Shown piece by piece: positions 16,721-30,402 of a DNA stretch of 37,029 nucleotides. The notes under the pieces were generated by a model. It ran no database searches and was not told the origin of the DNA. It saw only the letters and a program-made list of their open reading frames with translations. The stretch covers positions 1-37,029 of the IMG/VR virus record IMGVR_UViG_3300032223_001894. One strand, written 5' to 3'. The DNA comes from a virus. Made by a program: the position numbers and the translations under genes. Each line of letters starts with the position of its first letter. Position 1 is the stretch's first letter.

Positions 16721-17374
16721 TTAAATAAAATTTTTTTTATAATCATAAGTATTAAGAACCGCAGTTTTTTTGGATACTTTCATATTGTCAAGTAAAGCGA
16801 AATTTACGGTTGGCTTTCTTGCCCAATCATCGTTGTTATCAATGGGACGTTCTTTTGGAACTAATATTTGGCTTTTATAAACAATAACATTTTTTAATTT
16901 ATGCTTTTCAATTAGTTCGTCTTGCCTTCCACCGTAACTTGCAGTCAATATTAAATTTTTGGGTATATCGTTTATTCTATTAACCCAATATTGTAATGAT
17001 TTTGTATATGCCCACATTTCAATATTAGAATTATCTTTCGCAAGTTGAACCCACATATCAAAATATTTTTGGTTAAAAAAGTCACCGCTCATATGTATTC
17101 TTATGGCATTACAATCTTTTGGTATTTTAGGCACTCCGCCTTTTTTTACAAAATCAAAATTTTTCCACCTATGTTCCCTTACAGCTGGAAATCTTTCAGA
17201 ACTTGAGGCGTAACATCTATATGAACCTTTTTCAACATTAAATTTACCGGATAGTCTGTCAACCGTAACTTTGCACTCTAAGGCAAATGGGCAAGTGCTC
17301 CCAGTAGGTAGGTTCCATTCATACACTATTCCATTATAGTATGTTTTTTTTTTAATAAATTTTCCTTCGCTCAT
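16721..17374 (-). CDS. GP88-family phage protein
   Basis: 217 aa. The N-terminal part has the Cys pattern of the GP88 family (gene-product-88-like, first named in mycobacteriophages): TCPFALECKV near 27-36 and YRCYASSSERFP near 53-64, with an Arg-rich helix after it. The middle contains IRIHMSGDFFNQKYFDMW, and later MWAYTKSLQYW and LTASYGGRQDE. The clustered cysteines suggest a metal or Fe-S site. The biochemical function of the family is unknown. It stands apart from the upstream gene by a 73-bp A/T-rich gap and has typical CCGG-containing sequence, unlike the block upstream. Confidence 0.75.
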   Translation of the reverse strand: MSEGKFIKKKTYYNGIVYEWNLPTGSTCPFALECKVTVDRLSGKFNVEKGSYRCYASSSERFPAVREHRWKNFDFVKKGGVPKIPKDCNAIRIHMSGDFFNQKYFDMWVQLAKDNSNIEMWAYTKSLQYWVNRINDIPKNLILTASYGGRQDELIEKHKLKNVIVYKSQILVPKERPIDNNDDWARKPTVNFALLDNMKVSKKTAVLNTYDYKKNFI

Positions 17375-18284: not shown

Positions 18285-19151
18285 TTATTTAATAAATGAA
18301 AAAATATGTTCTATAATTGGTAAAGTCCATCCATCACCTAATAAACTTGCTGCTTTGTTCCTAGTTAGTATATCACAATAATTATCAGGAAATCCTTGTA
18401 ATCTACATAATTCTATTTTATTTAATATTCTAATATTTTCATTTTCTTTAAATTCAGTATTATCAAATACTATGTTTATCATTTTAAGTTTTATATATCT
18501 TTTATATAATTTTTCTTTGTTTACTAATTGTCTTTCTTCACTTTCTAAAATAGCACGTGCTTTTTTTCTATCAGTAAATCCTGAAGTTAAAATATCTTGA
18601 AACATTACTGCTTTATCTTTTGGAAATGGTATATCTGTAATTAAATCTCCAAACATTCCATCTTGTTTTGTTTTTATATTAGACCAATAATATCTATCAC
18701 GTGAAGCAGCAACAACTAATTCAGAATTAATCCTTATAGGATAAACACCTAATGCTCTTGACATAATACCAATATCAAATTTACTTGCACTTCCTACATT
18801 TTCTTGAAAAAATAAAACCTTTGGATTAAGTAATTTAATATGTTCTAATATCTCAACAAATACAAAAAACAAACTAGATTTGTTTCCATTAATACCAGCG
18901 CGTTTACCAGCAGCGGATAAATCTTGACAAGGACTACCCGATAAAACTAAATCAATATTTTTCCAATCAATATCCCACTCTTTCCACTTTAAAACATCTC
19001 CCACTTGAATAGTATCAGGAAAATGATGCTGTGTCAATTTTATTGCATAAGGTTTTATTTCACTTGAATAATATTTATTTACTTTAATACCTACGTTTTC
19101 AAGTGCTTGTCTTCCAGTATTCATTCCATTAAAAAGACTAACTACATTCAT
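18285..19151 (-). CDS. DNA cytosine-C5 methyltransferase, Dnmt3-like
   Basis: 288 aa, compact. SAM-binding motif I is VSLFNGMNTGRQAL (4-17). Motif IV, GSPCQDLSAAGK, carries the catalytic Cys75. Motif VI has QENV (116-119) and motif VIII AASRDRYYW (148-156). Motif X near the C-terminus is AASLLGDGWTLPIIEHIF. The short target-recognition region and the RYYWSNI motif resemble the Dnmt3-like branch found in Bacteroidota phages. It should write 5-methylcytosine at a short site that cannot be read from sequence. No cognate restriction enzyme is nearby. A TET/JBP-type dioxygenase elsewhere in this genome could use its product. It is inside a block without any CCGG, so it may be imported. Confidence 0.93.
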   Translation of the reverse strand: MNVVSLFNGMNTGRQALENVGIKVNKYYSSEIKPYAIKLTQHHFPDTIQVGDVLKWKEWDIDWKNIDLVLSGSPCQDLSAAGKRAGINGNKSSLFFVFVEILEHIKLLNPKVLFFQENVGSASKFDIGIMSRALGVYPIRINSELVVAASRDRYYWSNIKTKQDGMFGDLITDIPFPKDKAVMFQDILTSGFTDRKKARAILESEERQLVNKEKLYKRYIKLKMINIVFDNTEFKENENIRILNKIELCRLQGFPDNYCDILTRNKAASLLGDGWTLPIIEHIFSFIK

Positions 19152-25041: not shown

Positions 25042-25623
25042 ATGAAAATCGAAAAAGTAAAAATCAACGAAATAAAATTAAATCCAAACAATCCCAGGAT
25101 AATAAAGGATGATAAATTTAAAAAGTTAGTAAAGTCAATTCAAGAATTTCCGGAGATGTTGGAAATAAGGCCTATTGTGGTTAACAATGATATGATTATT
25201 CTTGGAGGAAATATGAGATTTCGAGCGTGTCAAGAGGCCGGGATTAAACAAATTCCTATAATTAAGGCAACCGATTTATCAGTGGAAAAACAGAGAGAAT
25301 TTCTTATCAAGGACAATGTTTCCGGCGGTGAATGGGATTGGGATATGTTGGCAAACGAATGGGACGAAACGGAATTGGAGGAATGGGGAATTGACGTATG
25401 GAAAAAGCCGGAGGATGTTGATTATTCAATTTTAGATGACCTTGACGAAAGTATTGATAAAAGCGCGGACGAAATGGTTGACGGAGTTAAAAAAGCCATA
25501 TTAATAGAATTCGAGGCGGAACATTATCCGGAAGCGCTTGAAATAGTAAACTTTTGGAGGGAACAAAAATTGTATATTGGCGGATTCTTAGTGGAAAAAT
25601 TAAAGGAGGAAAAGAACAAATGA
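25042..25623 (+). CDS. ParB-like (ParB/Srx) domain protein
   Basis: 193 aa. The ParB N-terminal domain covers about 1-95, with NPNNPR (14-19), a helix with KLVKSIQEF, PIVVNNDMIILGGNMRFRAC and the GG-N-M-R nucleotide-binding box (55-59). There is no ParB HTH or dimer domain; the C-terminal half is acidic (WDWDMLANEWDE, then DDLDESIDKSADEM). Stand-alone ParB-like proteins often lie before phage terminase genes and in DNA hypermodification cassettes. Here it is the first of four coupled genes (ATGA overlap with the next). It may bind the DNA or nucleotide targets of the modification, or act as a CTP/ATP switch; both are inference. Confidence 0.85.
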   Translation: MKIEKVKINEIKLNPNNPRIIKDDKFKKLVKSIQEFPEMLEIRPIVVNNDMIILGGNMRFRACQEAGIKQIPIIKATDLSVEKQREFLIKDNVSGGEWDWDMLANEWDETELEEWGIDVWKKPEDVDYSILDDLDESIDKSADEMVDGVKKAILIEFEAEHYPEALEIVNFWREQKLYIGGFLVEKLKEEKNK

Positions 25624-26342
25624 ATTTCGCAACCTTCTCAAGCGAAATAATTAAAAGCGGTGATATTGACCCGGACTACATATTTATGATTAATTATAAA
25701 AATGTTTACGGGGTTGATAAAACTTTCGAATTGTATAAGAAAAAAATATTGATATACAATTTACACTCAGAATTATTGTTGACCGAAAATTTAATAAAAG
25801 AAAGCGAAATAAAATTTGGAGCAGAAAGGCAAAAGAGTAAAAGATATTTTGCAGAATGGAATAACAATTTAAAACGGTTAACCATAAATCATTTAAAAAA
25901 ATTCCAGGGAGTTAATTATTTAATCTTTCGTGAAAACTTTAAAAAGATTAAAGGAATGGGAGATTGGGCGTGTTGGAAAACGGCCGACATAATGGAAAAA
26001 GTGTTTGATATTAAAATGAAATATGATTCAGACACTTTTTTATTAGCTTATGAATATCCTTTAAAAGGATTGTTAATGTTAAATAATTATCCGGAGGAGC
26101 CGGAAATATACAAGAAAAATAAAAGTTTATTTTTAAATCATTTATCCGAGGCCAAAAAACAATTAAAGGCACTGAGTAAAACACAATATTTTGATTCAGA
26201 AAACATATTGGAGATAGAAACCTTGTTGTGCAAATATCATTCATTTAAACACAAGAAATACACTCCACAAGATGATTTAAATAAATTAAGGAAAATAAAA
26301 AAGGATTCCAGGTTGGAGAAATATCATAAATTAATACCTTAA
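25620..26342 (+). CDS. Alpha-glutamyl/putrescinyl-thymine pyrophosphorylase-like DNA base transferase
   Basis: 240 aa from the ATG at 25620, overlapping the ParB stop (ATGA); a longer in-frame start at 25554 is inside the ParB gene. Signature motifs are KIKGMGDWACWKTADIME (about 109-126), which has the helix-hairpin-helix look of the family, DSDTFLLAYEYPLKG (136-150), and ETLLCKYHS (200-208) near the C-terminus. This family replaces the activated (pyrophosphorylated or phosphorylated) hydroxymethyl group of a DNA pyrimidine by an amine, as proposed for putrescinylthymine in phage phiW-14 and alpha-glutamylthymine in SP10. With the adjacent kinase and dioxygenase it completes a hypermodification route. 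The nucleophile (amino acid or polyamine) cannot be read from sequence. Confidence 0.82.
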   Translation: MNFATFSSEIIKSGDIDPDYIFMINYKNVYGVDKTFELYKKKILIYNLHSELLLTENLIKESEIKFGAERQKSKRYFAEWNNNLKRLTINHLKKFQGVNYLIFRENFKKIKGMGDWACWKTADIMEKVFDIKMKYDSDTFLLAYEYPLKGLLMLNNYPEEPEIYKKNKSLFLNHLSEAKKQLKALSKTQYFDSENILEIETLLCKYHSFKHKKYTPQDDLNKLRKIKKDSRLEKYHKLIP

Positions 26343-26851
26343 TGAAAAACGGATTAAAAACAATCTTTTTCCTTGTAGGAAATTACGGAGTTGGAAAATC
26401 AACTTTAATCAAGGAGCCTATTATCAATAAAGACAGCATATTTTTAGAAATAAGGCCAAATTTGTTTGTTTTAGGAACGGATATATGCGGTGCAGATAGT
26501 TTGAGTAGTTTTAAAAAAGAAAACGTTTTAAATCTAATTAAAACCAATACGGATAAAAACATAATTATTGCCGGTAATTATTATTGCTCAATTAAAGATG
26601 TCCAAGAACTACATCCGTATTTTAAATTGGTAATTATTTATTTAAACACTAATTACAGAACAAACAAAGAGCGCATTGCTAAAAGAGGGAAGGAAATAAA
26701 CGCAGAAACATATGTGTTAAAATTAAAGGCGCATAAAAGTTTTATTGAAAAAACCCGGGGATTGAGAAGGTTGTACATAATAGACAACAACAAACCGCTT
26801 AATGAAACAAAACCAATATTTAATAAAATAATAGCAGATGAAACGAATTGA
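26342..26851 (+). CDS. P-loop kinase, probable hydroxymethylpyrimidine DNA kinase
   Basis: 169 aa. Walker A is GNYGVGKST (13-21), followed by an Asp-containing strand (FVLGTDICGADS, about 42-53). A third strand is IIIAGNYY, then KLVIIYL with the basic lid NYRTNKERIAKRGKE (about 104-118). The size and pattern fit the small P-loop nucleotide kinases that phosphorylate hydroxymethyl bases within phage DNA (5-hmdU DNA kinase group). It starts on the stop of the transferase gene (TAATG) and overlaps the dioxygenase by 14 nt. A dNMP kinase is an alternative, but the cassette context favours a DNA-base kinase. Confidence 0.8.
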   Translation: MKNGLKTIFFLVGNYGVGKSTLIKEPIINKDSIFLEIRPNLFVLGTDICGADSLSSFKKENVLNLIKTNTDKNIIIAGNYYCSIKDVQELHPYFKLVIIYLNTNYRTNKERIAKRGKEINAETYVLKLKAHKSFIEKTRGLRRLYIIDNNKPLNETKPIFNKIIADETN

Positions 26852-27641
26852 TTTAATCCAGGTAAAGCACGATGTTAAAATTGGAAATGTATGCGAATAT
26901 ATTGAGCCAAATATAACCGAGGATTGCGTGTTTTATTATAATGACAAGCCAATCGGTTTTTATCTTAAAAAGATGCCGGAAAGGTTATGTAAAATAGCAA
27001 ACTTGGCAAATAATGAGTTTTTAAGCAAGAACGTTCCTAAAATGAAAATGAATAGGACATCCGCTATGAAAAACCAATTAAAAACTGAGTGGAACGGAAG
27101 CGGTGAGGCATCAGATGTTATTCAACTATCAACTATTATTGGCTCAATTCCTCCGCGTAATTTTGGCCGAAGGCCTTATTGTTCCAAATCAAGCGTACAC
27201 GCAGAAAAAAGCGCACAGATATTTATAAAAGCAATGTTAATGTTAGCAACAGAAAGTGAGAAAATAATTCAAGAAATATTGCCGGATGTTTATAAAAATC
27301 AGAAAAAGGAATTTGAAACTATTGCAGACAAATGGAAATTCGGAAACATATTTACGTCCTCCATTTCAAATTTTAATATATCCGCTCCATTTCATAGGGA
27401 TACGGGAAATGTAAACGAAGCGGTGAATGTAATTATAACAAAGCGGTTAAATTCAAAGGGAGGATGTTTAAACATACCGGATTATGGAGCCACAATTGAA
27501 CAATCAGATAATTCAATGTTGGTTTATCCAGCAGGGAAAAACATACACGGGGTTACACCAATTATTCCAACACATTCCGGAGGATACCGCAACTCATTAA
27601 TATTTTATCCGTTGAAAGCCTTTAAAAATGTAGAGAAATGA
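26838..27641 (+). CDS. TET/JBP-family 2-oxoglutarate Fe(II) dioxygenase
   Basis: 267 aa. The C-terminal double-stranded beta-helix has the iron triad His186-x-Asp188 in PFHRDTGN and His237 in NIHGVTP, and the 2-oxoglutarate-binding Arg251 in GGYRNS. Between them lie VNVIITKR and GGCLNIPDYG, as in TET/JBP enzymes (HRD, GG-x-L-x-(I/L)P-x-G, HGV, RxS). The N-terminal part (about 60-125) is helical with a Cys/His-containing patch (RRPYCSKSSVHAEKS). It should oxidise the methyl group of thymine or 5-methylcytosine in DNA to hydroxymethyl. That supplies the handle for the kinase and transferase, since no pyrimidine hydroxymethylase is encoded. Overlaps TerS by 4 nt. Confidence 0.9.
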   Translation: MKRIDLIQVKHDVKIGNVCEYIEPNITEDCVFYYNDKPIGFYLKKMPERLCKIANLANNEFLSKNVPKMKMNRTSAMKNQLKTEWNGSGEASDVIQLSTIIGSIPPRNFGRRPYCSKSSVHAEKSAQIFIKAMLMLATESEKIIQEILPDVYKNQKKEFETIADKWKFGNIFTSSISNFNISAPFHRDTGNVNEAVNVIITKRLNSKGGCLNIPDYGATIEQSDNSMLVYPAGKNIHGVTPIIPTHSGGYRNSLIFYPLKAFKNVEK

Positions 27642-28018
27642 GAAACGAAAAACAAGACAAAAATTTAATCCCTTTCGAAAAGGGTAAAAGCGGAAACGCA
27701 AACGGAAGGCCACGCAAAATGGTTTCTAAACTTAAAGAATTCGGATACAACCGGCAGGATATTGATACAACAATATTAAATATGTTGGCTATGACAAAAG
27801 ATGAAGTGTATGATATTTATAAGAATCCGAACGGAAATATGCTTGAAATAATGGTTGCATCAGCGATGAAAAAAAGCCTCGACAAAGGAAATCTTGATGC
27901 CTTTAAAGAGTTATTGAATAGAGCGCTTGGAACACCTAAACAAGCAATGAATATAACAAGCGGTGATGATACGATAAAGCAAGTGTTTATTATAGGCGGA
28001 ACAGAAATTGAACTATAA
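27638..28018 (+). CDS. Terminase small subunit-like protein
   Basis: 126 aa. It begins with the FEKGKSGNANGRPRK motif (about 13-27), the KPGQSGNPxGRP-type element seen in DUF5681-like proteins encoded before TerL. A helical region with an HTH-like part (LKEFGYNRQDIDTTILNML) and a C-terminal segment (NMLEIMVASAMKKSL, ELLNRALGTPKQ) follow. It should recognise the packaging start site and regulate TerL. It overlaps the dioxygenase (ATGA) and TerL (TAATG), tying modification and packaging genes into one translated chain. Confidence 0.8.
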   Translation: MRNEKQDKNLIPFEKGKSGNANGRPRKMVSKLKEFGYNRQDIDTTILNMLAMTKDEVYDIYKNPNGNMLEIMVASAMKKSLDKGNLDAFKELLNRALGTPKQAMNITSGDDTIKQVFIIGGTEIEL

Positions 28019-29409
28019 TGAGCGAAATAAAACAGATATTATTTGAATCATTTCCGAAGCAAGAGGAATTTTTGCAATCGGTTTTCTCAGATAAATACAA
28101 TTTTATTTTATACGGCGGAGCAATCCGGGGAGGAAAAACATTTGCCGGTTTATCCGCTTTATTATTGCTTTGTAAAAAATATCCAGGTAGCAAGTGGGCA
28201 GTTGTTCGGAATACATTACAAACTTTAAAAATTAATACAATCCCTTCGTTTCATAAAATTTGTCCCAAAAGATTTATTAAACATTATTCCCAGGATACGC
28301 AGACAATCACCTTTCAAAATAATAGTAAACTAATTTTTATGGGTGAAAATTATTCGGAGGACAAGGAGTTGAATAGATTTAAGGGATTAGAGGTGAATGG
28401 ATTTTTACTTGAGGAAATAAATGAGTTGCAGGAAAAGACATTTAATAAATGTTTAGAGAGAGCCGGAAGTCATATAACAATTAATCAACCGAGGCCGATA
28501 ATATTAGCAACCTGTAATCCTGCAAACAATTGGGTAAAGGAAAAGTTTTATGATGAATATAAAAGGAATTCCTTGCCTCATAATTGGCTTTATATCCCGT
28601 CAAAAATAACTGACAACCCATTTATCCCTCCGGAATATTTGGAATCATTAAAATCAATGCCAAGGTATGAATACGAGGTGTTTGTTAACGGGAATTGGGA
28701 GTATCAAAGCAAATCCGGGAATGAATTTTACAAGGAATTCAGCATGGAAAAACACGTGAAAAACGTAATGTATAAAAAGGAATTGCCGATATGGTTATCA
28801 ATAGATGAAAACGTCAATCCTTATTTTTCTTGCGCAGTATGGCAGATTGAGGGAAAGGTTGCCAGGCAGATTGACGAATTGGCGATGAGAAATCCGAACA
28901 ACACGGTTGTAGGAATGGCCAACGAAATAAAAAGGAAGTACGGGAGCCATAAAGCCGGATTTATTATCACGGGAGATGCTACAAGTAACAAACAAGACGT
29001 TAAAATTGAAAAAGGGTACAATTTGTACAGATTAATTGTTAATGAATTGCGAACTTTAAACCCGGTTTTGCGTGTACCGGCATCAAATCCGAGCGTTTTT
29101 GTTAGGGGATTATTTATAAATACATTATTTTATAGCAATTTTAACGGAATCCGGATTGAAATTGACGTAAATTGTAAGGAAACGATAAAAGATTTAATTC
29201 ATTTACAGCAGAGCGCAGACGGAACAAAACTAAAAACTAAAACAACAGATAAAACCGGAGCAAGATATGAGGAATATGGCCATTTTAGTGACACTATGGA
29301 TTATTTAATAACATCAGCCTTCGCAAGCGATTATTTAAATTACCAAAAAGGCACAAGCGGTATTACATTTTCCCTTGGAAAAAATAATGTAAGCAAGCAC
29401 GGTTATTAA
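28018..29409 (+). CDS. terL: Terminase large subunit
   Basis: 463 aa, full length. ATPase domain: Walker A GGAIRGGKT (33-41), Walker B GFLLEE (128-133), coupling motif ATCNPA (164-169). The RNase H-like nuclease domain has acidic residues Asp263 (SIDENVNPY), Asp320 (ITGDATS) and Asp425/Asp428 (HFSDTMDYL). It drives DNA into proheads and cuts concatemers. The circularly closing assembly would fit a headful mechanism, but this is inference. If the DNA is hypermodified before packaging, this nuclease must tolerate modified bases. Confidence 0.95.
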   Translation: MSEIKQILFESFPKQEEFLQSVFSDKYNFILYGGAIRGGKTFAGLSALLLLCKKYPGSKWAVVRNTLQTLKINTIPSFHKICPKRFIKHYSQDTQTITFQNNSKLIFMGENYSEDKELNRFKGLEVNGFLLEEINELQEKTFNKCLERAGSHITINQPRPIILATCNPANNWVKEKFYDEYKRNSLPHNWLYIPSKITDNPFIPPEYLESLKSMPRYEYEVFVNGNWEYQSKSGNEFYKEFSMEKHVKNVMYKKELPIWLSIDENVNPYFSCAVWQIEGKVARQIDELAMRNPNNTVVGMANEIKRKYGSHKAGFIITGDATSNKQDVKIEKGYNLYRLIVNELRTLNPVLRVPASNPSVFVRGLFINTLFYSNFNGIRIEIDVNCKETIKDLIHLQQSADGTKLKTKTTDKTGARYEEYGHFSDTMDYLITSAFASDYLNYQKGTSGITFSLGKNNVSKHGY

Positions 29410-29433
29410 CAGAAATATAAATTAAATTTGCAT

Positions 29434-30402
29434 ATGGGATATTTAAGACTTCAAGACTATTACAACAAAAGGATTCAAAAAGCACAGCTTGAACAAATAA
29501 CCGGAAACCGCGATGTTGTAAGACTATCTTGCGAAGCGGAAGCACAAGCGGAAATGATAAGTTATTTGGTTCAGAAATATGAAGTTTCGGAGGAATTTTC
29601 CAACACACCAAATTGGGAGCCTTCATTAACTTATTATGCAAACAATAGATTTGAATTGGACGGGGCAGTGTACTCAGCTACAAGCACCTATGCTTTAAAC
29701 CAGGTTGTATCATATAATAACAAAGTTTATTATTGTATTGTATCAATAGGAACGCCGGAAGTATTTAACCCATTACATTGGCAATTAATTGGTGTTCAAT
29801 ATGATTTATACTACGTTGATACGCCGTATCCTAATTACAATTCAAAAACCTATTACGAAATGGGGGAATTGATTTATTTTAAAAATAAAATATATAAATG
29901 CGTCACAGCTAATATGGGTATATTGCCAACGGATACCAATTATGGGACAACTTATTGGGGTATTGGTAATGAATATAAATTTAACCAGGTTCAACCTTAT
30001 AACACAGTTGCAGATTATACCGAATGGAGTAATTTAACAACTTATAATGTTAATGATGTTGTTAAAAGAAACGGAGTAATTTATCAAGCCTTTTTACAAA
30101 ATACAGACGTAAAGCCGGAAAATAGTTTAACATGGCAACCAATCGTATGGGTAAAAGGCGACAACCGAAGCCAACAATTAATCGGTTATATGATTGATTT
30201 ATGTTTGGAAAAAATACATTATTTAATTGCTCCAAACAATATTCCGCAAATAAGAAAGGATAATGCAGATTACGCAATTGAATGGCTTAAATCCGCCTCC
30301 GGTAGAGATAGCGCAATCACGGCCGACATTCCATTGATTCAACCAAATGTAGGTTTGAGAATCCGTTGGGGAAGTAAACCAAGAAATATAAACAATTATT
30401 AA
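29434..30402 (+). CDS. gp36-like head-tail connector with three inserted carbohydrate-binding-like modules
   Basis: 322 aa from the ATG at 29434; a TTG 6 nt upstream in frame is less likely. The ends (about 1-58 and 245-322) match the two parts of a Mu gp36/DUF1320-type connector: helices with EAEAQAEMISYLVQKYEV, then RSQQLIGYMIDLCLEKIHYL and YAIEWLKSASGRDS. Between them are three CBM5/12-like units (about 84-118, 137-178, 196-238). Each has the pattern Y-x-(L/M/V)-(N/G)-(Q/E/D)-(V/L)-(V/I), an aromatic-rich strand and a closing Trp (HWQL, YWGIG, TWQPI). Normal family members are about 140 aa, so the insertion doubles the length. The modules are probably displayed at the neck. Confidence 0.75.
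   Translation: MGYLRLQDYYNKRIQKAQLEQITGNRDVVRLSCEAEAQAEMISYLVQKYEVSEEFSNTPNWEPSLTYYANNRFELDGAVYSATSTYALNQVVSYNNKVYYCIVSIGTPEVFNPLHWQLIGVQYDLYYVDTPYPNYNSKTYYEMGELIYFKNKIYKCVTANMGILPTDTNYGTTYWGIGNEYKFNQVQPYNTVADYTEWSNLTTYNVNDVVKRNGVIYQAFLQNTDVKPENSLTWQPIVWVKGDNRSQQLIGYMIDLCLEKIHYLIAPNNIPQIRKDNADYAIEWLKSASGRDSAITADIPLIQPNVGLRIRWGSKPRNINNY

Follow-up and report, generated by a model that had tools for sequence, protein, structure and literature searches.

Introduction

In kinetoplastids, the TET/JBP enzymes JBP1 and JBP2 hydroxylate thymine in DNA, after which the hydroxylated base is glucosylated to give base J. Pathways starting from hydroxymethyl pyrimidines made by TET/JBP enzymes were reportedly predicted by Iyer in 2013 (cited in PMC8670742). 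Thymidine hypermodification in phages M6, YuA and PaMx11 has reportedly been described by Lee in 2018 and 2022 and by Wen in 2024, with 5-hydroxymethyl-deoxyuridine (5-hmdU) made before replication by a dUMP hydroxymethylase. For cytosine, Burke et al. reportedly found in 2021 that the phage TET enzymes that were assayed act on 5-methylcytosine (5mC), working with C5-cytosine methyltransferases (C5-MTases) of the same genomes, in a hypermodification that also employs a TET-associated glycosyltransferase. In Rhodococcus phage Tonitrus, a gene set homologous to the one analyzed here has been published with the prediction that it hypermodifies thymidine (PMC11955845).

A four-gene cassette precedes the terminase genes

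The DNA examined in this study (the window) spans an entire IMG/VR virus record (37,029 bp), with a G+C content of about 32% and a sheath gene indicating a contractile tail; no near-DNA relatives were found in INPHARED. On its plus strand, and with all reading frames of the cassette intact, a ParB-like gene (25042-25623; 193 aa) is followed by genes for an amino acid:DNA transferase (ADDT, or aGPT-Pplase; 25620-26342; 240 aa from the ATG), a small P-loop kinase (26342-26851; 169 aa) and a TET/JBP Fe(II)/2-oxoglutarate dioxygenase (26838-27641; 267 aa), and then by the small (27638-28018) and large (28018-29409) terminase subunit genes. As read from the DNA, ParB and ADDT overlap by 4 nt (ATGA), ADDT and kinase by 1 nt (TAATG), kinase and TET by 14 nt, TET and the small terminase gene by 4 nt, and the two terminase genes by 1 nt. 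A Shine-Dalgarno-like AAAGGAGG (25602-25609, plus strand) lies ahead of the ADDT start codon at 25620. The sequence-only reading, which had been made from this DNA before the present analysis, had described the same four-gene cassette running into the small terminase gene by 4 nt; the DNA confirmed this layout, and every motif that it quoted is present.

The gene identities proposed by that reading were also borne out, since three of the four proteins matched Pfam families above their curated cut-offs (PF02195, PF18724 and PF12851) and the kinase carries a Walker A motif. The ParB-like protein matched PF02195 (ParB_N) at 8e-10 and PHROG ParB-like families down to 1e-29, and its GGNMRFRA is a match to ParB box II. 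The terminase small subunit-like protein (DUF5681) matched PF18932 at 3.1e-8, and the large subunit matched PF04466 (Terminase_3) at 1.9e-9 and phrog_2 at 2.1e-33. Elsewhere in the window, a 324-aa protein with repeated carbohydrate-binding-like motifs (e.g., YNNKVYYC) is encoded between the large terminase and portal genes (29428-30402), and a GP88 family protein (PF17338, 2e-28), with homologs in several TET-bearing contigs (L056, L058, L071, L073 and L114), is encoded on the minus strand at 16721-17374.

The TET protein scored 52.1 bits (5.8e-14) against PF12851, for which the cut-off is 34.9, and its iron ligands H186, D188 and H237 and the 2-oxoglutarate-binding R251 are invariant in the alignment of relatives. 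Although the pLDDT of its structural model was only 74, the model had the double-stranded beta-helix fold, and the top Foldseek matches were TET2, CcTet and NgTet1 (E 3e-5 to 5e-4). Its assignment as a TET/JBP dioxygenase was thus confirmed, and it is predicted to oxidize thymine or 5mC in DNA. In PHROG 6059 and in a number of RefSeq records, the family goes by the name "queuine tRNA-ribosyltransferase" (seen for 26838-27641, for L009:17129-17914 and for Mycobacterium phage Nigel), which appears to be a propagated misannotation.

Profile searches also placed the 240-aa protein inside the pyrophosphorylase/ADDT family, as had been suggested earlier, with 44.6 bits (1.9e-11) against PF18724 (cut-off 26.2). 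When a profile built from the ADDT alignment was compared with PDB, it matched 25qc (an ADDT domain protein) at 6.7e-17 and the glycinyltransferase 8z2m at 1e-10, and 8z2n was matched as well. The blocks GxGxW...K and ExETxLCK are common to the window ADDT, 25qc and 8z2m, and GDxDPxY is shared with 25qc; in the family alignment, DIDPxY, GxGxW..WK and ExETLLCK are invariant or nearly so. No ADDT was confirmed in 84,980 bacterial and archaeal genomes, and among bacterial and archaeal genomes TET was found in one actinobacterial MAG only.

For the kinase, an AlphaFold model (pLDDT 92) had a P-loop NMP-kinase-like fold, for which Foldseek returned adenylate and UMP-CMP kinases and O-phosphoseryl-tRNA kinase. 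The Walker A motif reads GNYGVGKST, and residues G13, G18 and K19 are invariant among relatives. Against Pfam, no named family of 5-hmU kinases was matched, and the protein gave only weak AAA_18/dNK matches (1e-3, below the cut-offs), and tblastn of isolate phages found no homologues. It is therefore by context, rather than by profile, that we predict it to be a 5-hydroxymethyl-pyrimidine DNA kinase, acting on 5-hmU.

Conservation and variants of the operon

Viral sequences were scanned with the TET and ADDT alignments, which yielded 80 TET loci and 33 ADDT loci. Because TET and the kinase lie in the same operon as ADDT in all 39 ADDT records, and ParB in 37 of them (the other two records are contigs that start inside TET), linkage of the cassette goes beyond chance; many of these records are near-duplicates, and they represent about 24 distinct lineages rather than 39 independent events. 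Gene order was kept across distant phages. Linkage to the terminase was found in many relatives as well, and is thus a feature of this kind of cassette rather than of the window phage alone. By a regex test, a terminase lies beside TET at 30 of 78 loci, compared with 128 of 940 random places, the former being a lower bound given that this strict test misses known terminases (e.g., that of MED4-184).

Across all loci, the shared core was ParB-[slot]-TET. The slot held a TET-associated glycosyltransferase-like gene (PF20691; a 44-member cluster), an FkbM-type methyltransferase gene (a 23-member cluster), ADDT and kinase genes with or without a flavin enzyme gene, or other inserts, and the operon therefore looks like a swappable cassette. 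Two distant isolates, the Gordonia phage CloverMinnie and the Rhodococcus phage Tonitrus, have the same set as the window. The set is thus not unusual: its four families are present in Gordonia and Rhodococcus phages and have been published as predicted thymidine hypermodification (PMC11955845).

Several other arrangements were observed. In Prochlorococcus phage MED4-184 (L009:15790-19577), the order ParB, FkbM-type methyltransferase, TET and the small and large terminase genes suggests O-methylation of a hydroxymethyl base made by TET. At L012:4321-7992, and in L032 and L033, ParB is followed by glutamine amidotransferase-like, GNAT acetyltransferase, ADDT, kinase and TET genes, which may specify a longer tailoring path; a C5-MTase is found in the L012 record and none in that of L032. 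A 301-aa protein with no Pfam match, glycosyltransferase-like by eye, occupies the ParB-TET slot at L034:1790-2695 and at four other loci. Proteins of 338-360 aa with no Pfam match (L059:707-1723 and L031:7292-8374) cluster with the L012 ADDT and adjoin kinase and TET genes, and may represent a divergent transferase subfamily. Finally, a 187-aa protein, sulfotransferase-like by eye, lies between the slot gene and TET at L060:1684-2247.

Proposed pathway and amine donor

From the protein families, active-site residues and conserved operon layout described above, we consider it probable that the cassette serves a small myophage as a late operon for base hypermodification after replication, in which thymine is oxidized, phosphorylated and aminoacylated, most likely with glycine. 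In this pathway, the TET/JBP enzyme would hydroxylate the C5-methyl group of thymine in replicated DNA to yield 5-hydroxymethyluracil, the small P-loop kinase would phosphorylate the hydroxymethyl group (to a mono- or diphosphate), and ADDT would let a free amino acid take the place of the phosphate through its amino group, giving, in the case of glycine, N-alpha-glycyl-thymidine (5-[(carboxymethyl)amino]methyl-dU). The flavin lyase of relatives would trim this product to 5-aminomethyl-dU, while the window phage would stop at the aminoacyl form. ParB, whose gene almost invariably leads the operon, might load or spread the enzymes on DNA before packaging, although this role is a guess. The order of the reactions is that suggested by the biochemistry of the families. 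Oxidation, phosphorylation and displacement by an amine after replication had already been put forward by the sequence-only reading, and the present data support that scheme. In line with its proposal that no dedicated hydroxymethyl-nucleotide route is involved, no dUMP hydroxymethylase or other thymidylate-synthase-type gene (PF00303) was matched in the whole record, which fits a post-replicative route. The place of the cassette in the packaging operon likewise fits action just before encapsidation.

The amine donor had been left open by the earlier reading. However, enzymes of the ADDT family transfer free amino acids onto 5-hydroxymethyl-dU, so that the donor class is that of the amino acids, and the evidence within it points to glycine. 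A flavin enzyme gene is present in 22 of the 39 ADDT operons, including operons whose ADDTs are close to that of the window (63-70% identity). When a profile of eight relatives' flavin enzymes was searched against PDB, it matched, over the full length, only 8z2o (2.5e-13) and 8z79 (1.7e-12), both named "flavin-dependent lyase"; judging by accession, these entries and the glycinyltransferase 8z2m look like one deposition series. By this association with lyase-bearing relatives, we lean slightly toward glycine as the donor.

It is possible, though rather doubtful, that ADDT instead adds another amino acid or a polyamine to thymine, such as serine, glutamate or putrescine, as in phages ViI, SP10 and phiW-14. 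Several donors are indeed used across the ADDT/aGPT-Pplase superfamily, and the window ADDT, as a single sequence, has low identity to the solved glycinyltransferase 8z2m (phmmer E 0.043). Yet the lyase partnership of its close relatives points to glycine, and in the isolate collection the window ADDT finds, among the matches listed, YuA/M6-type and Gordonia phages and none of ViI, SP10 or phiW-14.

When the relatives' lyases were used as tblastn queries, no flavin lyase was found in the window genome, and an aminoacyl form of the N-alpha-glycyl-thymidine type is thus predicted as the end product. Phages L005 and L007 provide a natural precedent. They belong to the phages L005-L008, with whose ADDTs the window ADDT shares 63-70% identity. 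The ADDTs of L005 and L007 are 91% identical to each other, and in L007 the lyase gene has been cleanly deleted between flanks of 93% and 90% identity, the scar being the lyase start GTGAATATAAATATTATT fused ahead of the kinase ATG; hence, one type of ADDT works both with and without the lyase. The simplest reading is that glycyl-thymidine would be the end product here and aminomethyl-dU that of the lyase-bearing relatives.

Thymine or cytosine as the substrate

Pyrimidine hypermodification, as predicted by the sequence-only reading, is supported, but that reading overlooked a C5-cytosine DNA methyltransferase gene on the minus strand (18285-19151; 288 aa; PF00145, 3.4e-29) with intact motifs (PCQ, ENV and motif X). 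Given that an intact C5-MTase is encoded in the genome, the choice between thymine and cytosine is a live question. Motif X of this enzyme (GDGWTLPI) is presumably DNMT3-like, and its family is large (267 phage loci in one scan). Carboxymethyl-cytosine chemistry of the CmoX kind was considered for it and rejected, in that motif X (LLGDGWTLPI) has, by eye, no Arg at the place of HhaI Asn-304 (compare PMC12783734).

Cytosine was our first idea of the substrate, suggested by this methyltransferase, and was later demoted. In a cytosine route, the phage's own C5-MTase would make 5mC, TET would convert it to 5hmC, and the kinase and ADDT would yield an aminoacyl-methyl cytosine at methyltransferase sites only; we regard this route as unlikely. 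Besides the intact enzyme in the same genome, it is favored by the activity of assayed phage TETs, which are reportedly 5mC oxidases accompanied by genomic C5-MTases, and by C5-MTase matches at 11 of the 80 TET-scan loci (1.0 Mb; one of the loci lies in an ADDT record). Phage sets combining a methyltransferase, TET and a glycosyltransferase have been summarized (PMC12730594). On the other hand, no C5-MTase above the PF00145 cut-off was found in any of the 35 other ADDT+TET records (720 kb, including the complete CloverMinnie and Tonitrus; one sub-threshold 16-bit match), where 7.9 would be expected (Poisson p ~4e-4, uncorrected for relatedness); many of these contigs are fragments, so that the absence is not proof. 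Six complete TET phages (MED4-184, CloverMinnie, Tonitrus, Serendipitous, Lilmac1015 and C48C1) are without a C5-MTase.

Moreover, the window C5-MTase is unlinked to the cassette, being located in a separate minus-strand block among recombination and replication genes. Its orthologs in 80 IMG/VR records (61-89% identity), which lie near recombination genes in many of them, are accompanied by TET in only three, one of these matches being strong, and C5-MTase presence is not clustered on a quick TET tree (13 changes, against a shuffled mean of 14.2). Characterized ADDT enzymes, in turn, are generally known to act on 5-hmU. The C5-MTase is thus more likely independent of the TET cassette than a supplier of 5mC, and the comparison of genomes favors thymine over cytosine as the probable substrate. 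That C5-MTase, TET, kinase and ADDT might act in series on cytosine to give a sequence-specific aminoacyl-methyl-cytosine, with no hydroxymethyl-nucleotide pathway, is accordingly improbable in our judgment; to our knowledge, such a DNA base has not been described previously. It is very improbable that the cassette is degenerate or has a target other than phage DNA (e.g., RNA, or the DNA of the host in an attack on it), since, while no chemistry or experiment on any TET+ADDT-type phage was found in the literature, the frames are intact, the catalytic residues are kept, gene order is kept across distant phages and the cassette is linked to the terminase.

Comparison with known systems

If thymine is indeed modified as proposed, TET/JBP can stand in for the dUMP-hydroxymethylase pathway and supply the substrate for hypermodifying thymine with amino acids in finished phage DNA. 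This route has been predicted, and we found no demonstration of it. The window cassette is a member of an already predicted kind of thymidine-modification set, to which the present analysis adds the donor class, the lyase-less form together with a related phage that has lost the gene by natural deletion, evidence bearing on whether thymine or cytosine is modified, and the breadth of the exchangeable slot. The L005/L007 pair, one lyase gene apart, puts the product prediction within direct test. Also, given that cultured Gordonia and Rhodococcus phages carry a homologous set, the chemistry should be readable by ordinary LC-MS.

With JBP1/2, the pathway proposed here would share thymine hydroxylation in DNA as the first step, with phosphorylation and amination in place of glucosylation. 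As in Burke-type systems, TET/JBP is encoded in a ParB-slot-TET operon and a C5-MTase is present in the genome; in contrast to them, the window is without TAGT, its methyltransferase is unlinked and is not conserved with ADDT-type cassettes, and tailoring would be carried out by the kinase and ADDT. M6, YuA and PaMx11 likewise have a kinase followed by an amino acid:DNA transferase, together with a flavin-dependent lyase family common to the window's relatives, but the window has neither a PF00303 gene nor the flavin lyase, and TET is proposed to supply the hydroxyl after replication. Tonitrus and CloverMinnie resemble the window in having ParB, TET-like, aGPT-Pplase2/ADDT and small kinase genes at the left end ahead of the terminase, with no C5-MTase in those two; they differ in being actinobacterial phages, in the order of the genes (ParB-TET-ADDT-kinase), in protein sequence (22-25% identity) and in a fifth gene, oxidoreductase-like and possibly lyase-like, that is absent from the window.
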